38,645 bases of DNA. Origin: an uncultured Oscillospiraceae bacterium. GTDB taxonomy: Bacteria > Bacillota > Clostridia > Oscillospirales > Oscillospiraceae. A model generated the notes under the pieces. That model did not search any database. It was given only the letters and a program-made list of their open reading frames with translations, and had not been told where the DNA came from. The position numbers were made by a program, and so were the translations under genes. The stretch is taken from positions 1 through 38,645 of the forward strand of contig CANQZJ010000015.1 in the NCBI GenBank assembly GCA_947628315.1. Direction: 5' to 3'. This document shows, one piece after another, positions 194-29,597 of the stretch (positions are counted from its first letter, which is position 1; the number at the start of each line of letters is the position of its first letter).

Positions 194-400
194 ATGACCA
201 TCGCTGCAAAATACCGCCGCAACCAGGCTGTAAAGCTGGCCGACGCGCTCAATGCCATTGAGGGCGTCCCTGTGTCGGACTATGCCCGCACTCTTTCCGC
301 CTGTTGGGCGCGGGGCGAACTGACAGGGGAGCAGATGAAAAAAGCTCTGCTGGCCTCTCATCAGAAGCTGGCAGAGCAGGAGCACAGGCGCCATGCGTGA
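194..400 (+). CDS. VbhA-family antitoxin of a Fic toxin
   Basis: A 68-aa protein predicted to neutralise the Fic AMP-transferase encoded next to it. In this family an antitoxin glutamate from a (S/T)xxxE(G/N) motif reaches into the Fic active site and blocks productive ATP binding. Here the motif region reads LNAIEG (about residues 19-24): the Glu-Gly pair is present but the first position is Leu instead of Ser/Thr. The second half (ARGELTGEQM) matches the usual GxLTxEE helix of small VbhA proteins. I chose the ATG at 194 because GAAAGGCGGG stands about 6 nt upstream; an in-frame GTG at 134 lies inside the promoter. The stop overlaps the toxin start by 8 bp, the usual coupling in such modules. 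Confidence 0.8.
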   Translation: MTIAAKYRRNQAVKLADALNAIEGVPVSDYARTLSACWARGELTGEQMKKALLASHQKLAEQEHRRHA

Positions 401-1115
401 CCCGTATCTGTATGAGGATGTGCCGGTACTCCGCAATAAGCTGGATATCAGGACAGAGAGGACGCTGGATCTGATCGAGGCGGAGCAGTCCAGGACGAAC
501 ATGATGCTGCTGTATGAGCAGGGCTTTTCGAACTTCTCGCCGGCTGGCCTCTGTGAGATCCATCGATTCCTGTTTGGGGATATCTATGACTGGGCCGGCA
601 AGTATCGCATCATCAACATTCAAAAAGCCGAGAAGCTACTGGCAGGGCAGAGCGTGTGGTACTCCAACGATGACGACATTGAGCGGGATCTGGACAAGGC
701 TTTCGAGGCGATTTACACGGTCAATTGGAACGCCTGCTCCCGCGAAGAGTTTGTAGGGGCGTTGACGCGGCTGTTTCCTCCGCTTTGGCAGGTGCATCCT
801 TTCCGCGAGGGGAATACCCGCACAGTCGTAATGATGATGACGCTGTTCGTAGAGACGCACGGATACTTTTTTGACAAGGATCTGCTGGCAGCCAGCGCGG
901 GCTATGTACGGGACGCCTTTGTTATGGCGTCACTGGGTAAATATGCGGAGTATGAGCATTTGGAAAAGATTCTTCTGGATGCGGTCTGCACCGAGCCGAT
1001 GCCGGAAGAGGACGAAAGCCAGGTGCAGATAGACGAGCAGGAAAAGTACCGCAGGTATCAGAGAGAGCCGTATACGCCGTCGCCGCATACTCCAAGGATA
1101 GATACAGAAAGTTGA
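393..1115 (+). CDS. Fic-family AMP-transferase toxin
   Basis: A 240-aa Fic protein. Fic enzymes transfer AMP (sometimes another nucleotide part) from a nucleotide to a hydroxyl side chain; the toxins of VbhT/FicT type modify DNA gyrase and topoisomerase IV. The active-site loop is HPFREGNTR at about residues 134-142: catalytic His, the acidic metal ligand Glu and the anion-hole GN are all present, with Thr where HPFxxGNGR has Gly. An earlier HRFLFGDIYDWAGKYR (about 57-72) is the typical upstream Fic helix and flap. The tail (about 205-240) is charged and proline-rich, and may be disordered. It is translationally coupled to the antitoxin. The substrate cannot be read from sequence. Confidence 0.88.
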   Translation: MRDPYLYEDVPVLRNKLDIRTERTLDLIEAEQSRTNMMLLYEQGFSNFSPAGLCEIHRFLFGDIYDWAGKYRIINIQKAEKLLAGQSVWYSNDDDIERDLDKAFEAIYTVNWNACSREEFVGALTRLFPPLWQVHPFREGNTRTVVMMMTLFVETHGYFFDKDLLAASAGYVRDAFVMASLGKYAEYEHLEKILLDAVCTEPMPEEDESQVQIDEQEKYRRYQREPYTPSPHTPRIDTES

Positions 1116-1221
1116 TTATTTACGATCGCTGTACAGTGTAAATGCTGCTGACGTTATACTGTGTACTAGTTTTGCTGTATCGTTGCTGCCTTGAGCATTG
1201 CAAAATGCCAGGAGGAATGGA

Positions 1222-2055
1222 ATGAATATAGAGAAATACATACAGAAACGCAAGTCTGAAGATGGAATCAATGAGTTCGATTTGGAAAAGCGAAAAGAAA
1301 ATACCAGGATTTTTGTAAATTACGTTTTTGAATTTTTTAATGATTATCTGGACACTACCCCAAATGATGAAATAACCGTTTTACAAGAGCGAAAGATTGA
1401 GAAATATCGAAAATATGTTAGGAAGTACGATTTGCCTATTCAAGAGTGGCTGGTTTCATTGTATATTTCGCACGGAAGATATGTACAGAAACTTTTGCGT
1501 GATTTAATTCACGACGATTTTTTCCTTCTTTACACTAGTGATGCCGAATTTAGAGCTCTGGCATATCAAATCTATGCTGAAGCTGTAAAATCTGCAGAAT
1601 TTCTCCAAGGGCAAACGGAAATGGTTTTTTATTTTCTAAAGGATGCCTATAGGATTGATAGTACATTTCATCCTGCCCACGTTAATTTTTATATATTTGA
1701 TGGAATTAACGAGTGGATTGATAATACTTACCAAGACTATGGAGTAAATATCTACAATTTCTGTAGCAAGTGGGTTCACAAATTCTATTATCATCCTGAA
1801 CTTTGGCCTAAAGGCCATAAACGTAGAAATAAAGGGGAGTACAGCGAATATATTCCTTGGAATTACGATTACAAACAAAAGAGTAACTTGTTTGGCCTTG
1901 ACATGCTATATGAGCGAATGCCTAAAAAGAGTTTTGTCCAAGGAAAGAAACAGGAACTAGAAGTTGTGATGATGTACTGCTGGTTGCATGAAGTACATGG
2001 TGACAAAGAATATTGGGAGAACTATATCAACCAAGTTAGTAAAACTTTTCACTGA
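1222..2055 (+). CDS. Unrecognised AT-rich orphan protein
   Basis: A 277-aa protein of a family I do not recognise. The start at 1222 follows AGGAGG (1210-1215) at good spacing; an in-frame ATG at 1198 has no such site. The protein is mostly helical-looking, soluble, rich in Tyr, Phe, Lys, Asp and Glu, without signal peptide or membrane segment. Notable stretches are EFFNDYLDTTP near the N terminus and YNFCSKWVHKFYYHPELWP in the C-terminal half. The DNA is much richer in A/T than anything else here and uses AT-ending codons, a sign of recent transfer. It is the only other gene between the 51-bp repeats, so it is probably cargo of the same element; a defence role is possible but unsupported. 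TATACT at 1155-1160 could be its -10; 1116-1221 otherwise holds only an imperfect GTACA/TGTAC dyad. Confidence 0.75.
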   Translation: MNIEKYIQKRKSEDGINEFDLEKRKENTRIFVNYVFEFFNDYLDTTPNDEITVLQERKIEKYRKYVRKYDLPIQEWLVSLYISHGRYVQKLLRDLIHDDFFLLYTSDAEFRALAYQIYAEAVKSAEFLQGQTEMVFYFLKDAYRIDSTFHPAHVNFYIFDGINEWIDNTYQDYGVNIYNFCSKWVHKFYYHPELWPKGHKRRNKGEYSEYIPWNYDYKQKSNLFGLDMLYERMPKKSFVQGKKQELEVVMMYCWLHEVHGDKEYWENYINQVSKTFH

Positions 2056-2073
2056 GGTTACATCACCTTTAGG

Positions 2074-2120
2074 TTCTCGTGCGGCAACGCGTGTGGGTTC
2101 GAGTCCCTTCAGGCGCACCA
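2074..2120 (+). pseudogene. 3' fragment of a leucine-type tRNA
   Basis: The bases show a variable-arm-like hairpin (CGTG/CGCG), a T arm with TTCGAGT loop, an acceptor 3' strand CAGGCGC, discriminator A and an encoded CCA (2118-2120). No matching 5' half (GCGCCTG start, D arm) is found upstream, where the AT-rich gene ends at 2055. The T stem also has a T-T mismatch. This is the pattern left when an integrative element uses a tRNA 3' end as its target; leucine type is inferred from the long variable arm. Confidence 0.6.
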
Positions 2121-2168
2121 GGGGAACGGCTTGCAAATGCAGGCCGTTTCTCATAACATATAGATTAG
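2118..2168 (+). repeat. Right copy of 51-bp direct repeat
   Basis: Identical to 75-125. It begins at the CCA of the tRNA fragment and continues through the terminator-like hairpin, so here it is in what looks like its ancestral setting (tRNA end plus its own terminator). Confidence 0.85.
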
Positions 2169-2180
2169 GTATATTATAAT

Positions 2181-2217
2181 AAATCAAAACCACCGGTTGA
2201 ACCGGTGGTTTTGATTT
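2181..2217. terminator. Bidirectional terminator
   Basis: A perfect 17-bp stem (2181-2197 with 2201-2217) and a 3-nt loop; A-rich on one flank and TTTTGATTTGTT on the other. It ends the minus-strand penicillin-binding-protein gene and insulates the island. Confidence 0.85.
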
Positions 2218-2236
2218 GTTCTGAGAACCGGAGATG

Positions 2237-3610
2237 TCAGTATCCGTTTACGATGACGTCCAGCACCTTGGCGGCCACGCTGCCCGCGACGGCGGAGCCG
2301 CTGCCTCCGTTTTCCACCAGCACCACAAAGGCGTACGGGGTATCCTCGCCCCGGAGGAACCCGGTAAACCAGGCGTTGGGAGCGTTCTCGCCGCCCACCT
2401 CGCCGGTGCCGGATTTGGCGCACACATCCATGTTGGGGAAACGGGACTCCCCATAGGTCATCACAACGTTGTTGTGGAGCAGTTCCGACATTTTTTCCGC
2501 CGTATCGGGGTTGACCAGGGTGCCCGTGTAATGGGTGAGGTAGAGCGACGCCGGGATGTCCAGAGGCGTCTGGACGCTCTTGATGAGCTGAGGGACGGCC
2601 GCTTTACCCCCGTTGGCGATCGCCCCCATATAGACCATCATCGCGCAGGGGTTGACCTGATCCTTTCCCTGACCGATGCCAGACCACCCCAGCTGATTCT
2701 TGTCCGAGTCGGAGAACTCCACGGAACCGGCGGCGGTGTTCAGGCCGTTGATCTTATACCGGCTGGTCAGCCCGGCCTTTTCCGCATATTCCCGCATAAT
2801 GTCTGCGCCCAGCTCCTCCGCGAGGGGCGCGAACACCCCGTTGCAGGAGTTGGCCAGGGCGTCCGCGATATTTTGCTCTCCGTGGGCTGTGTGACAGGTC
2901 ACCACGCCGTCGCCCACCTGGGTGGAGCCGGTGCACGTCCAGGTGCGGTCATACAGATCCGGGATGTTATCCAGCGCGGCGGCCAGGGTGACCGTCTTAA
3001 AAATGGAGCCCGGGATAAATGTCCCGGAGAGGAACCGGTTGATATATACGCCGTCGTACCGCTCGTCCCCGTCCTCGATGACAGGGGGATCGGCCGGGTC
3101 GAAGGTGGGGGAGGAGACCATACAGAGGATCTCCCCGGTCTTGTAGTTGTAGACGCCCACCGCGCCCTTGTGCCCGTTCAGCGCCTGATAGGCGGTGTAG
3201 TTGTACCTGGCGTCCAGGGTCAGATACAGGTCGTTGCCCGCGCCGAGGGGGGAGTAGGCCCCCGTGATGGGGTTGTATCCGGAGAGCTGGGCGGCGAAGG
3301 CCACCAGGGCCCCGGAGCCGATATTCCCGTTGGGATCGCCCACCGCGTGGAGGGTGGCCTCCCGAACCGTCTCACCGTCATACCACTGGCGTGTGCCTGA
3401 GTCGTCCACCCAGGTGAGGACGTCTCCGTCCCGATCCAGTACCCGCCCCACGGACAGCGCCCCGGAGGAGTTGTACAGGTGCCGGTTGCCGGCGAAGGAG
3501 ACCCAGTCCCCGCCCCGGAAGAAGAACAGGAAGGAGAAGACCGCCAGGCCCAGGATCAAAGCCCCGGCCAGCAGCAAGCAGAACACCGCGCGCTTTTCAA
3601 TTTTCTTCAT
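2237..3610 (-). CDS. Class B penicillin-binding protein (transpeptidase)
   Basis: A 457-aa D,D-transpeptidase that cross-links peptidoglycan outside the membrane. One N-terminal membrane anchor (about residues 8-31) is followed by the transpeptidase domain with all three penicilloyl-serine motifs: SIFK (Ser202, Lys205), SCN (255-257) and KSGT (399-402). It is shorter than FtsI or PBP2 (about 600-700 aa) because the N-terminal dimerisation region is much reduced, like PbpA of actinobacteria and the small PBPs paired with SEDS proteins in Clostridia. ATG 3610 follows GGAGGG. The start overlaps the end of the SEDS gene by 14 bp, so the pair should be made together and act as a polymerase/cross-linker complex. 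Confidence 0.92.
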   Translation of the reverse strand: MKKIEKRAVFCLLLAGALILGLAVFSFLFFFRGGDWVSFAGNRHLYNSSGALSVGRVLDRDGDVLTWVDDSGTRQWYDGETVREATLHAVGDPNGNIGSGALVAFAAQLSGYNPITGAYSPLGAGNDLYLTLDARYNYTAYQALNGHKGAVGVYNYKTGEILCMVSSPTFDPADPPVIEDGDERYDGVYINRFLSGTFIPGSIFKTVTLAAALDNIPDLYDRTWTCTGSTQVGDGVVTCHTAHGEQNIADALANSCNGVFAPLAEELGADIMREYAEKAGLTSRYKINGLNTAAGSVEFSDSDKNQLGWSGIGQGKDQVNPCAMMVYMGAIANGGKAAVPQLIKSVQTPLDIPASLYLTHYTGTLVNPDTAEKMSELLHNNVVMTYGESRFPNMDVCAKSGTGEVGGENAPNAWFTGFLRGEDTPYAFVVLVENGGSGSAVAGSVAAKVLDVIVNGY

Positions 3611-5411
3611 TGGGATATCCCTCCTCTCCCTGCAGATTCCGGTACATCTGCCGGACGGCCTGTTTGTCCTCTTTCCGGCTGGGCAGCCGGATGGCAAAGC
3701 TGGCGTTCTGCCGGGTATCGGTGGCCTTCAGGAAGGCCAGAAGCCCCCAGGCCGCCATCATGGCGGAGCCGCCGTTGGAGACGAAGGGGAACGTGACGCC
3801 GGTGAGGGGAAGCAGATCCACCGCCCCGAAGATGTTGAGACAGGTCTGGAACACCATCATGGACGTGGCGGCGCAGGCCGCGATCACGTAAAAGCTGGAG
3901 CGTCCCGCCCGGCTGGCCCGGACGGCGAACACCGCCAGCGTCACAATGGAAAAGGCGGCCAGCAGGCCGATGATCAGGCCCCACTCCTCGCACAGCATAC
4001 CGAACACCAGGTCGGTATCCGCCGCCGCCACCCAGTGGAGCCAGCCCTCTCCGGGGCCGACCCCTACCAGCCCGCCGGAGGCGGCGGCCGACATGGCCCT
4101 GACCTGCTGGTACCCCCCGCCGGAGGCCTGCTCCCAGGCGTGCCCCCAGACGGCGAAGCGTTGGAGGATATAGGGCTTCAGAGACAGGATCACAAGAACC
4201 GCGAACACCGCGCCTCCGGTGATCAGGGCGAGGGTGGCGAAGTCCCCGGAGCGGAGATAGGCGATCACCAGGAAGGTCACAAAGAAGATGGCGGCGGTGC
4301 CAAAGTCGCTCATCAGGGCCAGACAGCCGAGACAGGCGCCGGTGAGCAGGATGAACAGCCAGATGTTCCGTTTCCGGAAGAGCCGCTCCAGGGTGGCGGA
4401 TCCGGCAAAGATATAGCAGATCTTGGCCAGCTCCGAGGGCTGCAGGGAGACGCCCCCGATGGATATCCAGTTGGCGGCGCCGTTGACGGTCTCGCCCAGA
4501 AGGAGGGAGACACCGCAGAGGCCGATGGCCCCCGCCGCCATGAGCCAGCGGATCTTCCTGGCGCGCTCCAGATCCCGCAGGAAGGACCCCAGCACCAGGA
4601 ACAGGACGATCCCCAGCAGTATGCTGATCAGCTGCTTGGGCAGGGCGTCCGTGTTGGAGGAGGATGTGACCGCCAACGACAGGGTGGAGAGGAAGAACGC
4701 GATGGTCTCCATCTCGAACCCGATACGCCGCAGCGCCCGCAGGATCAGAAAATACGCCCACATCACCAGGATCAGGCAGAGGAAGACGACGGGAATGGAG
4801 ACCGGGGCGTCAACTCCCTCCGAGATGATGAGCTGCAGGCAGGTGAGGATCTGAAACACGGTCAGCAGGATCAGGCTGGGCCAGGGGGAGACGGGCTTGA
4901 CCTCCAGCCGCCGTTTCCGGCGCTCCTGCTTCTCCTCGGGGGAGACCGGGAGGAGAACTGTCTCCACGCCGCCCAGGGAGATGACGTCGCCGTATTCCAC
5001 CGGGGACTGCTCCCGGATCCGATCCCCGTTGACGAAGACCCCTCCGGTGGAGGCCTGGTCATACAGAGTCCACTTGTCCTCCTGGTCGCGGATGAGGGCC
5101 GCGTGCTGCCGGGAGACCACCGGATAGTTCAGGACGACGTCACAGGAGCCGGCCCGGCCGAGGATGTTCTCCCAGTGGGTCAGCGGCGCCCTGGCGCCGT
5201 TGGGCAGGGAGAGGTAGGCCCACACCTCCGGCAGGTGGGGGACTGTCCACAGCGAGCGGATGACCCGGATCAGGATCAGAAGGGCCAGGATCGGGAAAAT
5301 AAAGCGAACCACCGTGGTATACCAGGCGCAGGCCTGGGGATAGGACTGCATGAACTGGGAGATCCGATCCATCAGCATCTGGGGGGCGTCCAGCAGCTGC
5401 TGCATCGTCAT
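3597..5411 (-). CDS. FHA-domain SEDS glycosyltransferase (FtsW/RodA/SpoVE family)
   Basis: A 604-aa membrane protein that would polymerise lipid II into glycan strands. Order: an N-terminal membrane helix (about 33-52), a forkhead-associated domain (about 80-155: GR at 85-86, SRQHA at 100-104, GGVFVNG near 123-129), then the many-spanning SEDS domain with PSELAK (325-330), SDFGT (368-372), a VGVGPG stretch and DTDLVF, the counterpart of the catalytic-Asp TDFIF motif of RodA. FHA domains bind phosphothreonine, so the fusion suggests control by a Ser/Thr kinase such as PrkC/Stk. Start 5411 is chosen because AAAGGAGGTGAG lies 5-7 nt upstream; ATG 5429 overlaps that site. The downstream PBP gene overlaps it. 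Confidence 0.92.
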   Translation of the reverse strand: MTMQQLLDAPQMLMDRISQFMQSYPQACAWYTTVVRFIFPILALLILIRVIRSLWTVPHLPEVWAYLSLPNGARAPLTHWENILGRAGSCDVVLNYPVVSRQHAALIRDQEDKWTLYDQASTGGVFVNGDRIREQSPVEYGDVISLGGVETVLLPVSPEEKQERRKRRLEVKPVSPWPSLILLTVFQILTCLQLIISEGVDAPVSIPVVFLCLILVMWAYFLILRALRRIGFEMETIAFFLSTLSLAVTSSSNTDALPKQLISILLGIVLFLVLGSFLRDLERARKIRWLMAAGAIGLCGVSLLLGETVNGAANWISIGGVSLQPSELAKICYIFAGSATLERLFRKRNIWLFILLTGACLGCLALMSDFGTAAIFFVTFLVIAYLRSGDFATLALITGGAVFAVLVILSLKPYILQRFAVWGHAWEQASGGGYQQVRAMSAAASGGLVGVGPGEGWLHWVAAADTDLVFGMLCEEWGLIIGLLAAFSIVTLAVFAVRASRAGRSSFYVIAACAATSMMVFQTCLNIFGAVDLLPLTGVTFPFVSNGGSAMMAAWGLLAFLKATDTRQNASFAIRLPSRKEDKQAVRQMYRNLQGEEGYPNEEN

Positions 5412-5481
5412 GCCCTCACCTCCTTTCACCGGCGCCCCGGAGGGCCGCGCGGATCAAGTCCTGCGTTTATGACAGCGCGGA

Positions 5482-5508
5482 GGAGAGACAGCCAAAGGCT
5501 GTCTCTCC
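5482..5508. terminator. Hairpin after the xanthine dehydrogenase gene
   Basis: A perfect 12-bp stem (5482-5493 with 5497-5508) with AAA loop. The T-tract (CTTTTCT) is on the plus side, whereas both neighbouring genes run minus, so termination of the minus transcript is uncertain. The rest of 5412-5532 shows no clear promoter for the FHA-SEDS gene. Confidence 0.5.
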
Positions 5509-5532
5509 CTTTTCTGTCGTGTGTTTACAGCG

Positions 5533-8385
5533 TTATTCCATGCGGGCGTCCCTGCGCTCCGCGCCCGCGCCGCTGATCTGCTCCGGCGTGATGGGCAGCT
5601 CGTAGAACCGCCGGCCGGTGGCCTGATAGATGGCGTCGGCAATGGAGGGCAGGGGGGTGTTGATGACGATCTCCCCGATGGACTTGGCGCCGAAGGGGCC
5701 GGTGTCCTCATAGCTGTTCTCAAAGGCCACGTGGATGTGGCCCACGTCCTGCCGGGTGGGGATCTTGTACTGCATAAAGGAGTTCTCCAGCACCCGGCCC
5801 TGCCCGTCGTAAGTGATATTCTCCGTCAGGGCCATGCCGATGCCCTGCACGATGCCGCCCTCCGCCTGGACGCGGGCCAGGTTGGGGTTGATGGGGGTGC
5901 CGCAGTCCACGCAGGCCCAGAAGTCCACCACCTTTGCGCTGCCGGTCTCCGGGTCGATCTCCACTTCGGCCACGCCGGCCATGTGGGGCGGAGGGGATTT
6001 GGGGGAGCTGTGGGTGTCGGTGGCCTCCAGGGCCACGCTGTGGCCGCACATGGAGGCGGTCATCACGTCGTCCAGGGAGACGGCCTTTTCCGGCGCGTCC
6101 AGGGCGTAGACCCGCTTGCCGTCGAACTCCACCTGGTCGGGCCGGCGCTCCAGCAGCTCCGCGCCCAGCTTGCAGATCTGCTCCCGCAGCTTCATCGCGC
6201 AGTTCTCCACCGCCTTGCCGGTGACGTAGGTGGTGCTGGAGGCGTAGGAGCCGGAGTCGTAGGGGGAGACGTCGGTGTCCGCGCCGAACACGGTGATGTC
6301 CTCCACCGGGCAGTCCAGCACCTGGGCGGCGATCTGGGCCAAAATGGTGTCGCAGCCGGTGCCGATGTCCGCCGCGCCGATGGTGAGGGTGTAGTACCCC
6401 TGCTCGTTCAATTTCAGGTTGGCGCTGCCCACGTCCATGCCGGAGATGCCGGAGCCCTGCAGCGCCATGCCCACGCCCATGGCGCGGAGCTTGCCGTCGG
6501 GCATCCTGCGGACGGGGAACTTCTCGTCCCAGCCGCTCATCTCTTTGACCTTGGCGAGGCACCGATCCAGGGCGCAGCTGGCGTTGACCTCGCCGTAGTA
6601 GGCGGGCATCACCTGGCCCTCCCGGACGATGTTCATCTCCCGGATGGCGATGGGATCCATCTTCAACCGGGCGGCCAGCTCGTTCACCGCCGATTCGATG
6701 GCGAACAGCCCCTGGGTCGCCCCGTAGCCCCGGTAGGCGCCGGCGGCCATGATGTTGGTGTACACCACGTCGCTGACGAAGCGGAAGGCCTCCGCCTTGC
6801 CGTACATGGGGATGGCCTTGTGGCCGGACAGGCCGACCGTGGTGGGGCCGTGCTCGCTGTAAGCGCCTGTGTTGGACAGGGTATACAGGTCGATGCCCCT
6901 GATGCGGCCGTCCTTCATGGCGCCCAGGCGCACATGCAACTGCATCTCGTGCCGGGGGCAGGAGGCGGTCATGCACTCCTCCCGGGTGTAGATCATCTTG
7001 CTGGGCTTTTTGGTCTTCCAGGTGACGAAGGCGGGGTAGATCTCCGACACCACCGTCTGCTTGGCGCCGAAGCCGCCGCCGATGCGGGGCTTGGTCACCC
7101 GCACCATGGACTGGGGGATGCCCAGGGCCGCCGCCACGATGCGCCGGGCGTGGAAGACGATCTGAGTGGAGCTGGTCACGTGGAGCCGGCCGTAGGGGTC
7201 GATGGTGCAGAAGGTGCGGAAAGTCTCCATCATGGACTGCTGGCAGGCTTTGGTGTGGTACACCCGGTCGATGACCACGTCGCACTCCGACAGCACCTTG
7301 TCGATGTCCCCGTCGGCGCTCTCCTCATGGGCGCAGAGGTTGCGTTTGTTGTCCGCGCCCACCGGGGCGAGGCTCTCCCAGTTATCCTCCGGGTGGACGA
7401 CGACAGGGGCGTCGATGGCCCTGGTATAGTCCAAAAGCGGCTCAAGCACCTGATATTTCACCTTGATGAGGGACAGGGCCCGATCCACCGCCTTCTCTGT
7501 CTCGCCGGCCACGATGGCCACCGGGTCGCCCACGTAGCGTACGTGCCGGTCCAGCAGCAGCCGGTCGTGGGGGCTGGCCTCCGGCCAGGTCTGACCGGCG
7601 GTGGTGAACCGTTTGGTGTGCTGATCCACGTCCTGCCAGGTGTAGATGGCCTCTACGCCCTCCACCCGCAGGGCGGCGGCGGTGTTGACCTCCTCCACCA
7701 TGGCGTTGGCGTGGGGGGATCGGAGCACCTTGACGATGAGGCAGTCCCTGGGGGCGATGTCGTCGGTGTACACCGGCTGGCCGGTGACCAGCTGCATGGC
7801 GTCTTTTTTCCGCACGGGCTTGTTGACGGCGTGGAAGGCCCGGGCCCCGGCCTTTTCGTGGTAGCCCTGTTCGGGGGCGTCGGCGGGATTCCAGAGAGGG
7901 AAGCTCTCCGGGGCGTCCTCGCCGGCGTTCCGGCGCTTGCGCCACTCCCGGAAGTTGAGCATCCCCCGGAGCTGGCCCTCGTACCCGGAGCAGCGGCAGA
8001 GATTGCCCGCCAGATACGCGCGGATCTCCTCCTCGGAGGGGTCGTCATTGTCCCGGAACAGGGAGATGGCGTTGAGGATGAAGCCGGGGTTGCAGAAGCC
8101 GCACTGCTCCGCCCCCTGGTCGGCGATGAACGCCCCGAACCGGGCCGCCTCCCGCTGGAGGCCCTCCAGGGTGGTCACCTCCCGGCCGTCGACGCGGGCG
8201 GCCAGCACCGAGCAGGACAGGGCCGGCTGCCCGTCCAGCAGGACGGTGCACAGCCCGCAGTTGGAGGTCTCACAGCCCCGCTTGACGCTGTAACAGCCCT
8301 CCTGCCGGACAAGGTCGATGAGCAGCAGGTCGGGGGCGACGTCCCGGGTGAGTTTTTTCCCGTTGAGGGTGAATGTGATGTCCAT
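5533..8385 (-). CDS. Xanthine-dehydrogenase-family molybdoenzyme, fused Fe-S and Mo subunits
   Basis: A 950-aa cytoplasmic hydroxylase subunit, likely acting on a purine such as xanthine or hypoxanthine. Residues 1-150 are the two [2Fe-2S] domains: plant-ferredoxin cysteines C38, C43, C46, C58 and the second set C95, C98, C130, C132. From about residue 185 to the end is the molybdopterin-binding domain, with GGGFGAKQ and, near the C terminus, KSIGEIV whose Glu (about 905) matches the catalytic base of xanthine oxidases. In most bacteria these are separate XdhC-like and XdhA-like chains; here they are one chain and only the FAD subunit is separate. ATG 8385 follows AAAGGAGGG. It lies 12 bp after the FAD-subunit gene. 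Nicotinate, aldehyde or another purine could be the real substrate; the purine permease and Mo genes nearby favour purines. Confidence 0.9.
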   Translation of the reverse strand: MDITFTLNGKKLTRDVAPDLLLIDLVRQEGCYSVKRGCETSNCGLCTVLLDGQPALSCSVLAARVDGREVTTLEGLQREAARFGAFIADQGAEQCGFCNPGFILNAISLFRDNDDPSEEEIRAYLAGNLCRCSGYEGQLRGMLNFREWRKRRNAGEDAPESFPLWNPADAPEQGYHEKAGARAFHAVNKPVRKKDAMQLVTGQPVYTDDIAPRDCLIVKVLRSPHANAMVEEVNTAAALRVEGVEAIYTWQDVDQHTKRFTTAGQTWPEASPHDRLLLDRHVRYVGDPVAIVAGETEKAVDRALSLIKVKYQVLEPLLDYTRAIDAPVVVHPEDNWESLAPVGADNKRNLCAHEESADGDIDKVLSECDVVIDRVYHTKACQQSMMETFRTFCTIDPYGRLHVTSSTQIVFHARRIVAAALGIPQSMVRVTKPRIGGGFGAKQTVVSEIYPAFVTWKTKKPSKMIYTREECMTASCPRHEMQLHVRLGAMKDGRIRGIDLYTLSNTGAYSEHGPTTVGLSGHKAIPMYGKAEAFRFVSDVVYTNIMAAGAYRGYGATQGLFAIESAVNELAARLKMDPIAIREMNIVREGQVMPAYYGEVNASCALDRCLAKVKEMSGWDEKFPVRRMPDGKLRAMGVGMALQGSGISGMDVGSANLKLNEQGYYTLTIGAADIGTGCDTILAQIAAQVLDCPVEDITVFGADTDVSPYDSGSYASSTTYVTGKAVENCAMKLREQICKLGAELLERRPDQVEFDGKRVYALDAPEKAVSLDDVMTASMCGHSVALEATDTHSSPKSPPPHMAGVAEVEIDPETGSAKVVDFWACVDCGTPINPNLARVQAEGGIVQGIGMALTENITYDGQGRVLENSFMQYKIPTRQDVGHIHVAFENSYEDTGPFGAKSIGEIVINTPLPSIADAIYQATGRRFYELPITPEQISGAGAERRDARME

Positions 8386-8397
8386 ATCTGCCCTCCT

Positions 8398-9183
8398 TTA
8401 CCGCAAAAGCCGGGTCACCGCGCGGCCCACCAGCGTTTTGATGAGATGGGTGCGGTACTGTGCGCTGCCCCGCAGGTTGGAGGCGGTGGGGATGGCCCCG
8501 GCGGCATAGGCGGCGATCCGCTCCGGCGCGTCGGGAGAGAAGGGGGGGCGCAGGATGCCGTCTTTGTCGGGCAGCAGGATGGCCTTCTGGGGCCGTGCGC
8601 CGATGGCGACGCGGAGGCCCTGATCGGTCAGGGCGGCGGCGCAGGTGAGGGCGGGGAAGTCCGTCTCGGTGTTCCGGGCGGACAGATAGCAGAATCTGGC
8701 CTCCGTTTTGGGGACGATCAGCCGCACCAAAATGTCCCGATCATAGGGGAGGCCGGCGAACCGGCTCAACGGCATGACGCCGCCCTTGTACAGCTCCACC
8801 TGGGCGTCCAGGGCCAGGAACAGGGTGAGCACGTCGGAGAAGCCGAACCGGCCGAAAATGCTGCCCCCCACGGTGGCGCAGTTGCGGAGCTGGACGCCCA
8901 CGATGTGCCGCAGGGCCTCCCTGACCGCGCCGCCCGAGTAGGCGTTGAGGCCGGGGTGGAGCTCCAGCTGCCGGAGAGTGACCATGGCCCCGATGGAGAA
9001 GCCCTCGCCGGTCTCCTCGATGGCGTCCAGGCCCAGGCCGGACAGGTCGATGGCGGTGCCCACCGGGCGGTCGCTCATCTTCAGCCAGACCATGCCGCCG
9101 ATGACCTTGTTGTTCTTTTTCTGGTTCAGCGTCCAGGCCTCTTCCAGGCTTTCAACGCGCCGGTATTCCCTGATGGTAAACAT
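8398..9183 (-). CDS. FAD-binding subunit of xanthine-dehydrogenase-type enzyme
   Basis: A 261-aa flavoprotein subunit that would carry electrons from the Fe-S clusters to NAD or another acceptor. The N-terminal FAD-binding region shows VIGGMVWLKM (about 27-36) and the conserved CATVGGSIFGRFGFSD (102-117), the latter typical of XdhB/CoxM. The C-terminal third is the usual CO-dehydrogenase-flavoprotein C-terminal domain. I chose ATG 9183 because GAGGGAGAATCTC precedes it and the family begins with a similar MFTIREYxRV; upstream in-frame sequence belongs to the promoter region. First gene of the two-gene operon, divergent from the molybdate-type transporter operon. Confidence 0.88.
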   Translation of the reverse strand: MFTIREYRRVESLEEAWTLNQKKNNKVIGGMVWLKMSDRPVGTAIDLSGLGLDAIEETGEGFSIGAMVTLRQLELHPGLNAYSGGAVREALRHIVGVQLRNCATVGGSIFGRFGFSDVLTLFLALDAQVELYKGGVMPLSRFAGLPYDRDILVRLIVPKTEARFCYLSARNTETDFPALTCAAALTDQGLRVAIGARPQKAILLPDKDGILRPPFSPDAPERIAAYAAGAIPTASNLRGSAQYRTHLIKTLVGRAVTRLLR

Positions 9184-9238: not shown

Positions 9239-9267
9239 AGTATATCACATTTTCCTTGCCAAGTACA
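9239..9267 (-). promoter_or_regulatory. Promoter of the xanthine dehydrogenase operon
   Basis: Reading minus, an extended -10 TGATATACT (core TATACT, 9239-9244) lies 17 bp from a weak -35 TGTACT (9262-9267). The -10 is preceded by AATGTGATA, the same nonamer that precedes the -10 of the divergent promoter, giving a perfect TATCACATT-N20-AATGTGATA inverted repeat (9243-9251 and 9272-9280). Confidence 0.55.
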
Positions 9268-9284
9268 GCGCAATGTGATAAACT
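9256..9284 (+). promoter_or_regulatory. Promoter of the molybdate-type transport operon
   Basis: TTGCCA (9256-9261), 17 bp, TAAACT (9279-9284) with an extended TGA just before it. The predicted start of transcription near 9290 falls on the ModE-like operator, so a bound repressor would block it. Confidence 0.6.
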
Positions 9285-9287
9285 CCA

Positions 9288-9311
9288 CGTTGTATTTCCG
9301 AAAATATAACG
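9288..9311. promoter_or_regulatory. ModE-like operator
   Basis: CGTTGTAT (9288-9295), an 8-bp spacer, then ATATAACG (9304-9311): a 24-bp dyad with one mismatch. This agrees in half-site sequence and spacing with the CGTTATAT...ATATAACG class of ModE operators known in Proteobacteria. The operon it precedes encodes a ModE-like DNA-binding domain (12256-12594), which is the obvious ligand. Confidence 0.7.
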
Positions 9312-9329: not shown

Positions 9330-10436
9330 ATGAAAAAACTGACCGCGCTGCTGCTGGCGCTTGCCCTGACCCTCTCCCTGACGGCCTGCGGCGCGCCCGC
9401 CGCCCAAAGCACCCAGACCCCCGCGCCCACCCCCGCGTCCGACCCCACCGCAGCCCCCACGCCGGAGCCCACCAAGGCCCCGGAGCCCGACCCCGACGTC
9501 ATCACCTACCCCGTCACCGTCACTGACCAGCTGGGCAGGGACGTGGTCATTGAGGCCCAGCCGGAGCGGCTGGTGAGCGGCTACTACATCTCCACCAGCC
9601 TGCTCATCGCCCTGGGTCTGGAGGACAAGCTGGTGGGGGTGGAGGCCAAGGCCGCCAGCCGGAACATCTATCAGCTCAGCGCCCCTGAGATCATCGACCT
9701 GCCCAGCGTGGGCACCGCCAAGGAGTTCGACCTGGAGGGCTGCGCCGCCCTGGAGCCCGACCTGGTGATCCTGCCCGCCAAGCTGAAGGACGTGATCCCC
9801 TCCCTGGAGGAGCTGGGCATCGCGGCTATCGCCGTGAACCCCGAGGACGAGGCCCTTCTGGAGGAGGCCGTGGCCATCCTGGGAGAGGCCACCAACACCG
9901 TGGCGCAGGCCCAGGCGCTGCTGGCCTTCCACAACGAGCAGCTGTCCGCCCTCACCAAAGACCTGGCCGGCCTGGAGGCCCCCACGGTGTATCTGGCCTC
10001 CAACAGCGCCCTGCTGTCCTGCGCCGGGCCTGAGATGTACCAGAACGACCTGATCGAGCAGGCCGGCGGCGCCAACGCGGCCGCCGACATCACCGACGAC
10101 TACTGGGCCGACGTGTCCTATGAGCAGATCCTGGCCTGGGATCCCGACTATATCATCCTGGCGGCGGACGCGGAGTACACCGTGGAGTCCGTGCTGGAAG
10201 ACGAGAACCTCCAGGACTGCGCCGCCGTGAAGAACGGCAGCGTTTTCCAGTTCCCCAACGACGTCGAGGCGTGGGATTCGCCGGTGCCCAGCGCCATCCT
10301 GGGCAGCATGTGGCTGGCCTCCATCCTCCACCCGGAGTACGGCGCGTCCAACTGGCAGGACGCCGTCACCGAGTACTACCAGACCTTCTACGGCTTTGAC
10401 GCCGTGGTGGGCGCCGCCGCCGGCGCCGAGGGCTGA
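9330..10436 (+). CDS. Substrate-binding lipoprotein of a metal/oxyanion ABC importer
   Basis: A 368-aa lipoprotein: signal peptide with lipobox LTAC (Cys20), a Pro/Thr/Ala-rich linker (about 21-55), then a two-lobed periplasmic-binding domain of the type used for iron-siderophore, haem, cobalamin and, in Haemophilus MolA, molybdate/tungstate. The N lobe opens with VTDQLGRDVVIEAQPERLVS, the usual start of this family. I chose ATG 9330 because GGAGG (9316-9320) lies 9 nt upstream; ATG 9321 touches it. First of a five-gene operon whose last two genes are a ModE-like regulator and a MocA-like enzyme, so molybdate or tungstate is the likely cargo. An iron or B12 role cannot be excluded. Confidence 0.85.
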   Translation: MKKLTALLLALALTLSLTACGAPAAQSTQTPAPTPASDPTAAPTPEPTKAPEPDPDVITYPVTVTDQLGRDVVIEAQPERLVSGYYISTSLLIALGLEDKLVGVEAKAASRNIYQLSAPEIIDLPSVGTAKEFDLEGCAALEPDLVILPAKLKDVIPSLEELGIAAIAVNPEDEALLEEAVAILGEATNTVAQAQALLAFHNEQLSALTKDLAGLEAPTVYLASNSALLSCAGPEMYQNDLIEQAGGANAAADITDDYWADVSYEQILAWDPDYIILAADAEYTVESVLEDENLQDCAAVKNGSVFQFPNDVEAWDSPVPSAILGSMWLASILHPEYGASNWQDAVTEYYQTFYGFDAVVGAAAGAEG

Positions 10437-11434
10437 TGGCCCGCCCGGCTGAAAAACGGAATATCGCGCTCTGCGCCGCCGCCGGGATCCTAATGCTGGC
10501 GGCGGCGCTGGCGTCGCTGTTGGTGGGGAAGTACCCGCTGTCTCTGGCCGCGCTCCTGGGCGGCGACGAGGGACAGCTGCGGGTGTTCCTCACCCTGCGC
10601 CTGCCCAGAACGGTGATGGCCGCCCTGGGCGGCTTTGCCCTGGGCGCGGCGGGGTATGTGTTCCAGACGGTGTTCCGCAACCCCCTGGCCGCCCCGGATA
10701 TGATCGGCGTGTCCAGCGGGGCCAGTGCCGGGGCCGCCTTTGCCATCCTGTTCCTGCCCGCCACGGCTGCCTCTGTAACGGGGTCCGCCTTTACAGGGGG
10801 GCTTCTGGCGGTGGGGGTGGCCCTGGGGCTGTCCGCCCTGGCGCCGGGCGGCAAAAACGCCTCCATCGTGCTGGCGGGCATCGCCGTCCACGCCCTGGCC
10901 CAGACGGCGCTGATGGCATTAAAACTGGCCGCCGACCCGGAGCGGCAGCTGGCCTCCATCGAGTACTGGATCATGGGCAGCTTGAACGCCATCACCCTGG
11001 GGAAGATCCCGTTCTACTGCGCTGTGTGCGTCGTGGCTCTGATCGGCGTGTTCCTGCTGCACCGGCAGATCGTGCTGCTGTCGGTGGAGGAGGGGGAGGC
11101 CCGGATGCTGGGGGTGCCCGTGGGCCGGATGCGCCTGCTGGTGCTGGTGCTGGCCACCCTGGTGGTGGCGTCGGTCATCAGCGTGACAGGGGTCATCAGC
11201 TTCATCGGGCTGCTGGCGCCCCACATCGCCCGGCTGCTGACGAAGGACAACCGCCTGTCCACCCTGACGCTCAGCGGGCTGATGGGCGGGGTGCTGCTGC
11301 TGGTTGCCGACATCCTGGCCAGGAGCGCCGCCACCTCCGAGCTGCCGGTGAGCATCTTCACCTCGCTGATCGGCGCGCCGTTCCTGCTGTACCTGATCCT
11401 GAGAGGAAACGGAGGGGAACGCCATGCCGCCTGA
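10436..11434 (+). CDS. FecCD-family ABC permease, molybdate-type (inferred)
   Basis: A 332-aa inner-membrane permease with about 8-10 helices, forming the channel of a type II (BtuC-like) importer. Family hallmarks are visible: LRLPRTVMAALGGFALGAAG (about 53-72), QTVFRNPLAAPDMIGVSSGA (78-97), SFIGLLAPHIARLL in the cytoplasmic coupling region and LPVSIFTSLIGAPFLLYL at the end. ATG overlaps the lipoprotein stop (TGATG), and the 3' end overlaps the ATPase gene, so the three are coupled. In Haemophilus the same fold (MolB) imports molybdate and tungstate; that substrate is inferred here only from context. Confidence 0.88.
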   Translation: MARPAEKRNIALCAAAGILMLAAALASLLVGKYPLSLAALLGGDEGQLRVFLTLRLPRTVMAALGGFALGAAGYVFQTVFRNPLAAPDMIGVSSGASAGAAFAILFLPATAASVTGSAFTGGLLAVGVALGLSALAPGGKNASIVLAGIAVHALAQTALMALKLAADPERQLASIEYWIMGSLNAITLGKIPFYCAVCVVALIGVFLLHRQIVLLSVEEGEARMLGVPVGRMRLLVLVLATLVVASVISVTGVISFIGLLAPHIARLLTKDNRLSTLTLSGLMGGVLLLVADILARSAATSELPVSIFTSLIGAPFLLYLILRGNGGERHAA

Positions 11435-12251
11435 CAAAACAACCTTTCTGGTTCTTGACCATATCACCGCCGGATATGGCAGAGCAGAGATATTAAAGGG
11501 TATCTCCTTTACAGCGAATGCCGGGGAGCTGACCGGCCTGCTGGGGGCCAACGGCTGCGGCAAGACCACGCTGTTAAAGGCCATGTGCCGCCAGATCCCC
11601 TGCACCGGGATCATCACCTGCGGCGGGGAAGATCTGACCGGTCTGTCCGGCCGGGAGCTGGCCCGGAAGATCAGCTACGTCCCACAGCGCACCGGGATCG
11701 GCATCTCCCTCCCGGCGCTGGAGGTGGTGCTCATGGGCTTCAACCCCCGGCTGGGGCTGCTGGAGCGGCCCTCCAAAGCCCAGGAGAGACAGGCCATGGA
11801 GGCCCTGGCCGCCGTGGGGATGGCGGACGCCGCCCACCGGGACTACCAGACCCTCAGCGAGGGGCAGAAGCAGCAGTGTATCCTGGCCCGCACCATAGTG
11901 GAGGACGCGCCCCTGCTGCTGCTGGACGAGCCGGAGAGCTCTCTGGACTTCCCCCACCGCCGCCGGATGATGAACCTGCTGGCGGACATGGTGGGCGGTT
12001 GCAAACCGGGCGGCGATGTGGTATCCTCAGGGAAAGCGGGGCTGGTGGTGCTCCACGACCCGGCGCTGGCGCTGGAGTACTGCCGGCAGCTGGTGCTGAT
12101 CAAGGACGGCGTCTGCGTGGCCGTCCTGCGCCCCGGAGAGGACAGGATCGACCGGATGGAGGCCGCCCTGTCCCGGATCTACGGCCCCGTCTGTCTGGCC
12201 GACCTGGGCGAAGGCGGCCGGCGGCGGCTGGTGATGCTGGCAAAGGAGTGA
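11424..12251 (+). CDS. ABC importer ATPase of the FecE/BtuD type
   Basis: A 275-aa ATPase that powers the importer from the cytoplasmic side. Walker A is GANGCGKTT (about 42-50), Walker B LLLLDEPESSLD (about 161-172), and the H-loop is in VVLHDPALALEYC. The signature motif is LSEGQ in place of LSGGQ, an acidic change at the second Gly that also occurs in some natural FecE-like proteins. Between Walker B and the H-loop a short extra stretch (GGCKPGGDVVSSGKAG) is present. GGAGGGGAACGCC precedes ATG 11424, which overlaps the permease end by 11 bp. Confidence 0.88.
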   Translation: MPPDKTTFLVLDHITAGYGRAEILKGISFTANAGELTGLLGANGCGKTTLLKAMCRQIPCTGIITCGGEDLTGLSGRELARKISYVPQRTGIGISLPALEVVLMGFNPRLGLLERPSKAQERQAMEALAAVGMADAAHRDYQTLSEGQKQQCILARTIVEDAPLLLLDEPESSLDFPHRRRMMNLLADMVGGCKPGGDVVSSGKAGLVVLHDPALALEYCRQLVLIKDGVCVAVLRPGEDRIDRMEAALSRIYGPVCLADLGEGGRRRLVMLAKE

Positions 12252-12255
12252 TTCC

Positions 12256-12594
12256 ATGGACTGCGCCACACGGGTATTCCTGCGGGACGACGCCGGGGAG
12301 AAGTTCTTCGGCGAGGGGCCCTGCCGTCTGCTGAAGGGCATCCAGCGCACCGGCTCCCTTCGGGCGGCGGCGCTGGAGATGGAGATGGCCTACACCAAGG
12401 CCACCCGCATTCTGAAAAGGGCGGAGGAGACCCTGGGTTTCCCGCTGACAGAGCGCACCATCGGCGGAAAGGGAGGGGGCGGCAGCCGCCTCACCCCGGA
12501 GGCCGCCGCCTTTGTGGAGAAATACGAGCGGTTCCGGGACGGCTGTTACGCCGCCAACAAAGAGCTGTTCCGCCAGGTGTTTCTCAATGGATAA
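12256..12594 (+). CDS. ModE-like stand-alone winged-helix regulator
   Basis: A 112-aa protein equal to the N-terminal DNA-binding domain of ModE: GPCRLLKGIQRTGSLRAAAL (about 20-39) followed by the recognition helix region MAYTKATRILKRAEETLG and the wing with a Gly-rich GGKGGGGSRLTPEA. It lacks the C-terminal TOBE domains that bind molybdate in full-length ModE (about 260 aa). It may therefore act as a constitutive repressor, or sense through a partner. GGAG lies 7 nt before ATG 12256, and the 3' end overlaps the next gene by 8 bp. The ModE-like operator at 9288-9311 makes autoregulation of the operon very likely. Confidence 0.85.
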   Translation: MDCATRVFLRDDAGEKFFGEGPCRLLKGIQRTGSLRAAALEMEMAYTKATRILKRAEETLGFPLTERTIGGKGGGGSRLTPEAAAFVEKYERFRDGCYAANKELFRQVFLNG

Positions 12595-13171
12595 GAATAT
12601 CGGCTGTGTGCTGATGGCCTCCGGCCTGGGGCGGCGGTTCGGCGGGAACAAGCTGATGGCCTCCTTCGCGGGCGGGCCCATGATATACCGTGTCCTGGAC
12701 GCCACCGACACGCCGCTCATCGCCGGCCGGGTGGTGGTCACCCGGAGCGGGGAAGTGGCGGCGCTGTGCCGGGAGCGGGGCCTGGAGGCAGTCCTCCACG
12801 AACTGCCCTGGCGCAGCGACACCATCCGCCTGGGGCTGGAGGCCCTGGGGGATGGTTTGGACGGCTGCCTGTTCTGCGCCTGCGATCAGCCTCTGCTGGC
12901 CCGAACCTCCGTGGAGGAACTGTGCCGCCGGTTCGCGGAGGAGCCGGACTGCATCTGGCGGCTGTCCTATGGCGGCGAGCCTGGCAGCCCCATCCTTTTC
13001 CCGGCGGGCTGTTTTGCGGCGCTGAGCGCGCTGCCGGAGGGAAAGGGCGGCTCCTACGTTTTCCGATCCTGCCCGGAGCGGGTGCGGCTGACCGAGGCGT
13101 CTTCCCCCTGGGAGCTGCGGGACGTGGACACCCCAGAGGATCTGAAAGAGTTATCAGAGCATATAAAATGA
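12587..13171 (+). CDS. MocA/MobA-like molybdenum-cofactor nucleotidyltransferase
   Basis: A 194-aa protein of the MobA-like NTP-transferase family. The N terminus VLMASGLGRRFGGNKLM (about 8-24) is the nucleotide-binding signature (LAxGxGxRFGxxK), and CACDQPLL (about 101-108) is the metal-binding region. MocA makes the cytidylyl form of molybdopterin used by xanthine-dehydrogenase-type enzymes, fitting the divergent dehydrogenase genes. MobA (GTP) is the alternative. The first codons overlap the end of the regulator gene; the stop lies inside the terminator stem. The weak first Gly pattern and the Cys in place of Asp before DQP are small departures from textbook MocA. Confidence 0.82.
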   Translation: MDKNIGCVLMASGLGRRFGGNKLMASFAGGPMIYRVLDATDTPLIAGRVVVTRSGEVAALCRERGLEAVLHELPWRSDTIRLGLEALGDGLDGCLFCACDQPLLARTSVEELCRRFAEEPDCIWRLSYGGEPGSPILFPAGCFAALSALPEGKGGSYVFRSCPERVRLTEASSPWELRDVDTPEDLKELSEHIK

Positions 13172-13219: not shown

Positions 13220-14665
13220 TTACTTCTCGATCTTCTCCAGCTCGGCGGACTCCTCGGCCTCGATCTGCTTGTCCTCGGGATCCTTGGGCAGCAGGATGTT
13301 CAGCAGGATGGCCACCACGGCGGCGGGGACGATGCCGGAGCCGCCGAAGATCAGCTGCACGTACTGGGGAGTATGGGCCAGGATGCCGGTGTTGGCGCCC
13401 ATGCCGTAGCCCACGCCCAGGGCCACCGCCACGATGGACAGGCTGCGGGCGGTGAGAGGGTGACGGGTGATCAGCTGGATACCGCTGAGCACGATGGAGG
13501 AGAACATGATGACGGCAGCGCCGCCCAGGACGGACTGGGGCATGATGGACACGATGGCGCCCAGCTTGGGGATCAGGCCGCACAGCACCAGGAAGACGGC
13601 GCCGCAGGCCAGAGCCATCCGGTTGACCACCTTGGTCATGGCGACCAGGCCCACGTTCTGGCTGAAGGAGGTGTTGGGCAGCACGCCGAACAGGGCGGCC
13701 AGGGAGGAGCCGATACCGTCGCAGATGACGCCGCCGGACAGCTCCTTGTCGGTGGCCTCACGATCCATGCCGCCGACCATGACGCCGGAGATATCGCCCA
13801 CGGTCTCCACTGCGGTGACGATGAACATGATGCCCACGGGGAGGATGGCCCGCAGGTCGAACACCAGGGGCACGGGCACCACGTGGGGGATCTCGATCCA
13901 GGCGGCGTCGGCGACCTGGCTCCAGTTCAGCACCCAGGACTTGGTGACCTCGGCGCCGTCGGCCCCGATGAAGGTGTGGGGCAGGATCAGACCCATGACA
14001 AAAGCGGCGATATAGCCGGCGATGATGCCGATCAGGATGGCGGAGGAGCTGAGGAAGCCCTTGGTGCAGTGCTTCACGATGAGGATGACCACCAGCACGA
14101 AGGTGGCCAGCAGCAGGTTCTCCATGGAGCCGAAGTCCTGGGCGGTGTTGCCGCCGCCGAAGGAGTTGATGCCCACGGAGATCAGGGACAGACCGATGGA
14201 CAGCACCACGGTGCCGGTGACCACCGGCGGGAAGAACTTGCGCAGGGGCTTGAGGAAGAAGCCCAGCACGCCCTCAAACAGGCCGCCGATGAGGGAGGCG
14301 CCCATCATGGCGCCGTAGGTGAGGATGCCGCTGCCCATGGAGGCGGCCACACCGCTGAACACGCCGATGAAGCCGGAGGACGTGCCCATGACGATGGGCA
14401 CCTTGCCGCCGATGGGGCCGATGGCGAACAGCTGGATCAGGGTGACGATGCCGGCGATGAGCATGGCGTTCTGCAGCAGGGACACCCGCAGATCGGCGAA
14501 CTCGGCGTTGCCGGCCAGGCCGCACGCGCCGGTGATGACCAGCAGCGGGGTCAGGTTGCCCACAAACATGGCCAGCACGTGCTGGAGTCCCAGCGGGATG
14601 GCCTGTGCCAGGGGCATTTTGCCGTCAAATTGATAGGCGGCTTCGGAAAGACCGTTTTTCTTCAT
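13220..14665 (-). CDS. NCS2-family purine (xanthine/uric acid) permease
   Basis: A 481-aa membrane symporter with about 14 helices that would bring xanthine, uric acid or a related purine into the cell. The N terminus QAIPLGLQHVLAMFVGNLTP (about 21-40) is the NCS2 hallmark, and the signature region NTSFSQNVGLVAMTKV (near the middle of the C-terminal half) has the conserved QN-G-x4-TK pattern. VETVGDISG carries the substrate-site Glu expected of xanthine/urate transporters. The tail is acidic (EAEESAELEKIEK). ATG 14665 follows AGGGAGTG. It converges on the molybdenum operon and completes a plausible purine-use locus with the dehydrogenase genes. Confidence 0.9.
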   Translation of the reverse strand: MKKNGLSEAAYQFDGKMPLAQAIPLGLQHVLAMFVGNLTPLLVITGACGLAGNAEFADLRVSLLQNAMLIAGIVTLIQLFAIGPIGGKVPIVMGTSSGFIGVFSGVAASMGSGILTYGAMMGASLIGGLFEGVLGFFLKPLRKFFPPVVTGTVVLSIGLSLISVGINSFGGGNTAQDFGSMENLLLATFVLVVILIVKHCTKGFLSSSAILIGIIAGYIAAFVMGLILPHTFIGADGAEVTKSWVLNWSQVADAAWIEIPHVVPVPLVFDLRAILPVGIMFIVTAVETVGDISGVMVGGMDREATDKELSGGVICDGIGSSLAALFGVLPNTSFSQNVGLVAMTKVVNRMALACGAVFLVLCGLIPKLGAIVSIMPQSVLGGAAVIMFSSIVLSGIQLITRHPLTARSLSIVAVALGVGYGMGANTGILAHTPQYVQLIFGGSGIVPAAVVAILLNILLPKDPEDKQIEAEESAELEKIEK

Positions 14666-20746: not shown

Positions 20747-20918
20747 ACCTACTGACTCTGACAGCCGAACCTCTGTCCGGATGCCTCGCGCCGTCCAGTG
20801 CGGACGGACCGCTTTACGACAGGTCTCCACGCTGCCGCACCGCGAGCCAAACGGGGTTTGAATTACCTCCTTTTTTCGGTGCGCGCCGTCTATTTTGTGT
20901 GGAGTAGGCGGGACGCCC

Positions 20919-20958
20919 GTACTGAGTACAGAATACCATATCGGCCGCCATATTGCAA
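20919..20958 (-). promoter_or_regulatory. Promoter and start-site palindrome of the ABC ATPase
   Basis: Reading minus: TTGCAA (20953-20958), 17 bp, TATTCT (20930-20935). Immediately downstream a perfect palindrome GTACTGAGTAC (20919-20929) spans the expected +1, so it is a candidate operator. The leader to the ATG is about 175 nt. The rest of 20747-21108 holds this leader and the divergent feo promoter. Confidence 0.6.
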
Positions 20959-21017
20959 GATTTTTTTGGAGGAATTCACAACTTTTTATTTCTTTTTTCC
21001 GCGGGCGGCAACCCTTC

Positions 21018-21046
21018 TTGCGCCGGCGCGGGCGGGGTGATATAAT
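21018..21046 (+). promoter_or_regulatory. Promoter of the FeoA-FeoB gene
   Basis: TTGCGC (21018-21023), 17 bp, perfect TATAAT (21041-21046). I see no Fur-type or DtxR-type palindrome close to it. Confidence 0.65.
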
Positions 21047-21108
21047 ACCTGCCAGCTGGAAACAGAGCGGCGCGACACCATTCTGTCCCCACGGAAAGAG
21101 GGATCTGC

Positions 21109-29514: not shown

Positions 29515-29524
29515 ATCCGAGAAC

Positions 29525-29557
29525 AACGTCCCCCGGTCTTGCGCCGGGGGACGTTTT
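29525..29557 (+). terminator. Terminator
   Basis: A 12-bp stem (29525-29536 with 29544-29555), 7-nt loop, followed by TTTTCTG. Confidence 0.9.
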
Positions 29558-29597
29558 CTGTTATGATGGAGAAAACCACAGAGAGGGAGCGGTGACC

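Follow-up and report, generated by a model that had tools for sequence, protein, structure and literature searches.

The window considered here, that is, the whole stretch of 38,645 nucleotides that was analysed, comes from an uncultured Oscillospiraceae bacterium whose assembly totals 2.69 Mb and is 77 % complete. As stated in an initial annotation of this DNA, it carries an operon for a MolABC-type importer, a 112 aa ModE domain and a MocA-type enzyme, divergent from genes for a xanthine dehydrogenase (XDH). The relevant features are:

5533 to 8385, minus strand: XDH-type Fe-S/molybdopterin subunit (PF02738, PF20256, PF01799)
8398 to 9183, minus strand: XDH-type FAD subunit, divergent (PF00941)
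9256 to 9284, plus strand: sigma-70-like promoter TTGCCA-17-TAAACT, the -10 box ending 3 bp before the operator
9288 to 9311, no strand assigned: ModE-type operator, the near-perfect 24 bp dyad CGTTGTATTTCCGAAAATATAACG (pattern searches and conservation at operon heads)
9330 to 10436 (alternative start 9321), plus strand: MolA-type substrate-binding protein (PF01497; HI_1472, PDB 3psa, E 5e-21)
10436 to 11434, plus strand: MolB-type FecCD permease (PF01032)
11424 to 12251, plus strand: MolC-type ATPase with no TOBE match (PF00005)
12256 to 12594, plus strand: ModE DNA-binding domain alone, 112 aa (HTH_1, 1.3e-8; TIGR00637, 3.3e-16; PDB 2ijl and 1b9m)
12587 to 13171, plus strand: MocA-type molybdopterin cytidylyltransferase (TIGR03310, 9.8e-34; PF12804)
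13220 to 14665, minus strand: xanthine/uracil permease, convergent (PF00860)

The third-best PDB sequence match of the MolA-type protein was HI_1472, which we take to be the molybdate-binding MolA of H. influenzae, and molybdate is considered the substrate of the importer because of this match and the gene context. The 112 aa protein had been described as the ModE winged helix lacking the molybdate-binding TOBE part, and this holds: HTH_1 was its sole Pfam match, the ModE_repress domain was its best NCBIfam match, and neither the Pfam nor the NCBIfam profiles detected in this ORF the C-terminal TOBE pair of ModE regulators. The TIGR00637 match scores 59 bits, which is under the curated cut-off of 98.5, and the PDB match 2ijl is a 135 aa chain named molybdenum-binding transcriptional repressor. 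The mocA gene overlaps modE by 8 bp, and the best family for its product is TIGR03310 (residues 7–188, 117 bits, cut-off 186); the protein keeps the NTP-binding loop ASGLGRRFGGNK (ASGxGxRFGxxK) and has DQP as its DxP motif. The xanthine/uracil permease gene is also close to the operon in many relatives. The window further includes a malK-I RNA (RF03069, 116 bits, 20741–20922) at the start of a minus-strand gene for a MalK-type ATPase, two ORFs of the Fic/DOC family (393–1115 and 33374–33982), and two minus-strand ORFs of 666 and 447 aa (20986–22986 and 28276–29619) that have no Pfam match at 0.001.

Counted by eye, 10 of the 12 base pairs of the operator dyad are symmetric and the symmetry spans all 24 bp. 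When the window was searched for CGTTGTAT-N8-ATATAACG allowing up to three mismatches, 9288–9311, read on both strands, was the sole match, with 0.01 matches expected from shuffled sequence. It is also the sole place with no more than two mismatches in the organism's own assembly, where 10 other places have three mismatches and the reversed pattern, used as a control, gave 17 places. The site belongs to the CGTTATAT-N8-ATATAACG type of ModE regulators. Hence, the dyad claimed as a ModE-type operator at this position is real, being unique at this stringency in the assembly and conserved at related operons, as described below.

The site had also been placed on the expected transcription start, and this is borne out by the promoter, as with a -10 box so close upstream of the dyad transcription of the importer operon should start inside it. 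The distance from the end of the -10 box to the site is 0–5 bp at 22 of the 23 importer heads (an uncontrolled count), and this spacing is the geometry predicted for start-site occlusion. On the other side, 104 bp separate the operator from the start codon of the XDH FAD gene, and inspection by eye places the operator upstream of a TGATATACT box on the xdh strand; given this location, activation or co-control of xdh from the operator is a possible, candidate role. An inverted repeat, TATCACATT...AATGTGATA, was also seen by eye in the region that separates xdh from the divergently transcribed importer genes (9243–9280). It overlaps the -10 regions of both strands; it may act as a further operator, or it may result from the presence of two extended -10 boxes. 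No Moco RNA was matched upstream of the importer operon or elsewhere in the window at the Rfam gathering cut-offs, and control of the operon by a riboswitch, whether of the Moco or another class, was discarded, as Rfam had no match there.

Conservation of the site was examined in related genomes. Close orthologues of the regulator were found at 15 loci (55–82 % identity), and 74 of 200 genomes from the family of the window were matched, 29 of the best loci being read. The main tally of 31 genomes, compiled by hand from those with a regulator of the window's group, consists of the window, the 15 close-orthologue loci, 14 of the loci L161–L176, and L051; L171 and L173, which have no ModE domain, and the more distant L177 and L178, which have a ModE domain and MocA, lie outside it. 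The site is present in 29 of the 31, or 29 of 33 if L177 and L178 are added, though several of the genomes are closely related (L165 and L166; the Lapin MAGs) and the counts are not independent. Of these 29 sites, 23 are at an importer head, five precede a ModE-MocA fusion gene and one precedes a longer gene run (selD-desulfurase-yqeB-modE-mocA-moeA-like). In L036, L042, L046, L047, L048 and L051 the importer operon is preceded by a dyad of the same type, which at other loci precedes ModE-domain genes, and the operator is also kept in genomes where the regulator gene is apart from the importer. Ten genomes in which the importer head was outside the fetched locus were searched whole with the pattern, and nine contained exactly one site (reversed control, none of ten). 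Eight of these directly precede molA, with an XDH FAD gene divergent at six of the eight and none in the short stretch fetched for L091 and L093, and the ninth, in L040, precedes a ModE-MocA fusion gene. Conservation upstream of orthologous operons, set beforehand as the refutation test, was thus found, the exceptions being L037 (no site in the whole-genome pattern search), L175 (no site in the locus, although a ModE domain is present), L177 (a variant dyad only) and L178 (no site above threshold). In L176 (6061–11990), the site at 11967 is followed by selD, a class-V desulfurase gene, yqeB, the modE-domain gene, mocA and the moeA-like gene, and this run appears to tie the regulator to maturation of selenium-dependent molybdenum hydroxylases.

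A site matrix was trained on 13 clostridial sites, which limits the independent test to L161–L180. In these 20 held-out loci (303 kb) there were 13 hits at 18 or above and none in the reversed sequence, and among 20 simulated sets a single set gave a single hit at that level. The cut-off of 18 was set after the scores were known and L162 (19.0) and L164 (18.2) lie near it, though a cut-off of 15 yields the same 13 loci. Hits were found in 13 of the 16 loci with a ModE domain versus none of the four without (Fisher p 0.007), of which only L171 and L179 hold an importer operon. In the L179 genome a ModE domain is encoded on a different contig, while L171 includes a complete importer-NTPase-MocA operon. 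The clostridial matrix also ranks the E. coli modA operator first in a 3.5 kb region, with 13.9 versus 4.5 for the next candidate. A chance dyad is excluded by the assembly-wide count, the held-out matrix test and the conservation in other genomes, and the pairing of this operator with a ModE regulator lacking TOBE domains is, as far as sequence comparison can establish it, well supported. The XDH/MolABC/NTPase-MocA locus of L171 (G711, 268–8364) has no operator and its genome has no ModE-domain match, and it may represent a natural loss of both.

The regulator is also closely linked to MocA. A single protein contains both the ModE domain and MocA in 14 genomes of the 31, such that the DNA-binding domain is physically linked to a pathway enzyme, and the two are encoded by neighbouring genes in 16; L051 has no MocA beside modE. 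The window belongs with the neighbours, having separate, overlapping genes, and its 8-base overlap is shared by L036. One-frame ModE-MocA fusions account for 10 of the 15 close orthologues, and at least four further ones (L161–L164) were among the matches listed from 397 genomes of the family of one fused member, where forward fusions share 41–88 % identity with L038. The linkers range from about 1 to 95 aa, and with such variable lengths simple tethering fits as well as allostery. The reverse order was found at 12 of 13 more distant loci, where a MocA-like domain precedes ModE, the remaining one being MobB followed by ModE; the 13 were chosen for their long frames and hence give no frequency, and eight of them (L078, L080, L081, L083, L084, L086, L087 and L088) were checked against family libraries. 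A sample of 398 genomes from the phylum added at least five whole-length reverse fusions. With forward fusions in 14 genomes and the reverse order at 12 loci, an assembly artefact is unlikely. In a tree of 75 domains, which has few columns and many unresolved forks, at least four changes of label on well-supported branches are needed for the forward fusion and three for the reverse one, each of which may be a gain or a loss.

Of 32 linked MocA proteins, 30 have both the loop and DQP, the loop not being found in L177 and L178. In the reverse fusions the loop was not found in five of 12, and an E. coli-type site lies upstream of one of the 12 (L081). An AlphaFold model of the fusion with the shortest linker has two confident parts with a long helix between them (mean pLDDT 90), and with a pTM of only 0.65 it defines no interface between the domains. 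When this model was used in a fold search, all of the best 50 PDB matches were of the nucleotidyltransferase kind (Rv0371c at the top, MobA 1hjl at rank 50), which supports the assignment of the MocA part; that of the ModE part rests on sequence.

BirA and NadR are trigger enzymes, which unite a DNA-binding domain with an enzyme from the pathway that they regulate. The initial annotation had left the route of sensing open, with the importer ATPase, the cofactor enzyme or no sensing as the options; of these, the cofactor enzyme is favoured by the fusions found in relatives. We propose that a dimer of the 112 aa winged-helix protein would occupy the 24 bp dyad, cover the start point of the importer operon and block its transcription, and that molybdenum sufficiency would be read as cofactor and not as molybdate. 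MocA, which attaches CMP to Mo-molybdopterin (PMC2997495), would use CTP to convert Mo-molybdopterin to the cytosine dinucleotide cofactor, the likely user of which is the divergent XDH-type enzyme, and in its substrate- or product-bound form would set DNA binding by ModE through contact or fusion. If the cofactor were short, the operon would open, and import and MocA would rise. That a TOBE-less ModE on the dyad represses the importer, with the cofactor sensed via MocA as a trigger enzyme, appears to us somewhat more probable than not. The case differs from BirA and NadR in concerning the molybdenum-cofactor pathway and the enzyme MocA, in the proteins being separate in the window, and in that control by a ligand is putative.

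MocA cannot be the sensor everywhere, as few stand-alone ModE domains are near it: among 27 with wide flanks, MocA is next door in three and anywhere in the locus in nine. For the stand-alone ModE domains in the family of the window, a recognisable dyad was found within 280 bp in 10 of 29, five of the E. coli type and five of a second type, CGTTATTCT-N6-AGAATAACG, which occurs with up to three mismatches upstream of the ModE-domain gene in L014, L024, L028, L029 and L035; none of 870 simulated upstream regions equals these matches. In G068 and G189, which have no dyad within 280 bp, the site is farther off, at the importer head. The stand-alone ModE domains and the reverse fusions may, therefore, use other operators or other sensors.

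The same scarcity of MocA, with 24 of the 27 stand-alone ModE domains having none next door, bears on a simpler explanation in which DNA binding by the ModE domain is constitutive or depends only on the level of the protein itself (autoregulation), and fusion to MocA serves co-expression without passing any signal. The long and variable linkers and the position of modE inside the operon that it would control also fit this explanation. However, it does not account readily for fusions in which either domain may come first, or in which MobB takes the place of MocA, nor for the five loop-less reverse fusions of 12, which keep the enzyme domain for no obvious metabolic reason, and we regard it as rather unlikely. 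Sensing of molybdate by a separate TOBE or Mop protein that acts in trans on the ModE domain has a precedent for the splitting of the parts, in the single ModE DNA-binding domain of Desulfovibrio and the Mop-only remnant of Geobacter metallireducens, in the portion of the literature considered. However, PF03459 (TOBE) has no match in nine of the 18 linked genomes searched and a match in a frame of <100 aa in only three of the 18, TOBE frames of 385–429 aa being among the matches, and the single match in the organism's own genome, from an assembly that is incomplete as noted above, is in a frame of 414 aa (L005). This distribution disfavours a TOBE protein as the general partner of ModE and makes sensing in trans improbable.

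MalK acts on MalT in sensing, and the importer ATPase MolC could act likewise on the ModE domain, given that molC adjoins modE in most of the importer operons read. Yet in L161–L163 the 16 kb read contains no importer next to the fusion, elsewhere other genes lie between molABC and the fusion gene or the two are on different contigs, and a MolC-ModE fusion was absent from the loci read, so that this route is a shade less probable again than sensing in trans. The last candidate is the NTPase_1 (THEP1-like) domain, found in eight of the 31 loci, where it lies between modE and MocA in six, after modE in L051, which lacks MocA, and after MocA in L175. Those between modE and MocA were recognised by PF03266 in L046 and L048 and by similarity in L167–L170, and the domain was checked with Pfam in L046, L048 and L051. 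As 23 of the 31 loci, including that of the window, lack it beside these genes, it is very improbable as the sensor. Thus, the reading that we infer from the genomes compared is that the repressor would report the state of the molybdenum cofactor through MocA as a trigger enzyme.

The regulator resembles E. coli ModE in its winged-helix domain, with a GGKGGGG wing in both, and its operator resembles that of E. coli modA, CGTTATATTGTCGCCTACATAACG, which lies shortly before the modA start codon. The clostridial protein differs in having no TOBE pair, in its association with a MolABC/FecCD-type importer, and in adjoining or being fused to MocA. Regulators consisting of the ModE DNA-binding domain alone have been known in two Desulfovibrio species and D. 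psychrophila since Rodionov 2004 (PMC545781), where the mechanism of molybdenum sensing by single-domain ModE was called not clear, and these are likewise tied to molybdate transport. However, the operator predicted in Desulfovibrio is CGGTCACG-N14-CGTGACCG, whereas the site in the window is of the E. coli type, and the companion gene there encodes an integrase-Mop fusion, with no link to MocA described in the part of that source considered here (PMC545781). In the sections considered, a survey from 2025 of the TOBE proteins of gut microbes deals with ModE proteins that carry a single TOBE domain or two (PMC11980592). No ModE-MocA or ModE-MobB protein was named in the titles or abstract openings of the mainly open-access papers listed by the literature searches. 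Hence, a ModE with the DNA-binding domain alone is not new in itself; the point of sensing indicated by the MocA fusions is.

More broadly, clostridial TOBE-less ModE may be a protein sensor of the finished cofactor via MocA or MobB, arising by repeated joining in both orders, with the enzyme in some reverse fusions decayed to a receptor, though the chances for and against this wider proposal seem to us evenly balanced. The Moco riboswitch candidate, as presented in the part of the source considered, would also sense the finished cofactor in controlling molybdate transport and Moco genes (PMC2408646); it differs in being an RNA element, of which the window has none by the Rfam search above. 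The fusions name a concrete candidate sensor for a ModE that has the DNA-binding domain only, within single polypeptides and with a defined operator. If the proposal is true, the suggested Moco riboswitch would have its equivalent among bacterial proteins, and the ModE fold would be a module able to work with different sensors.
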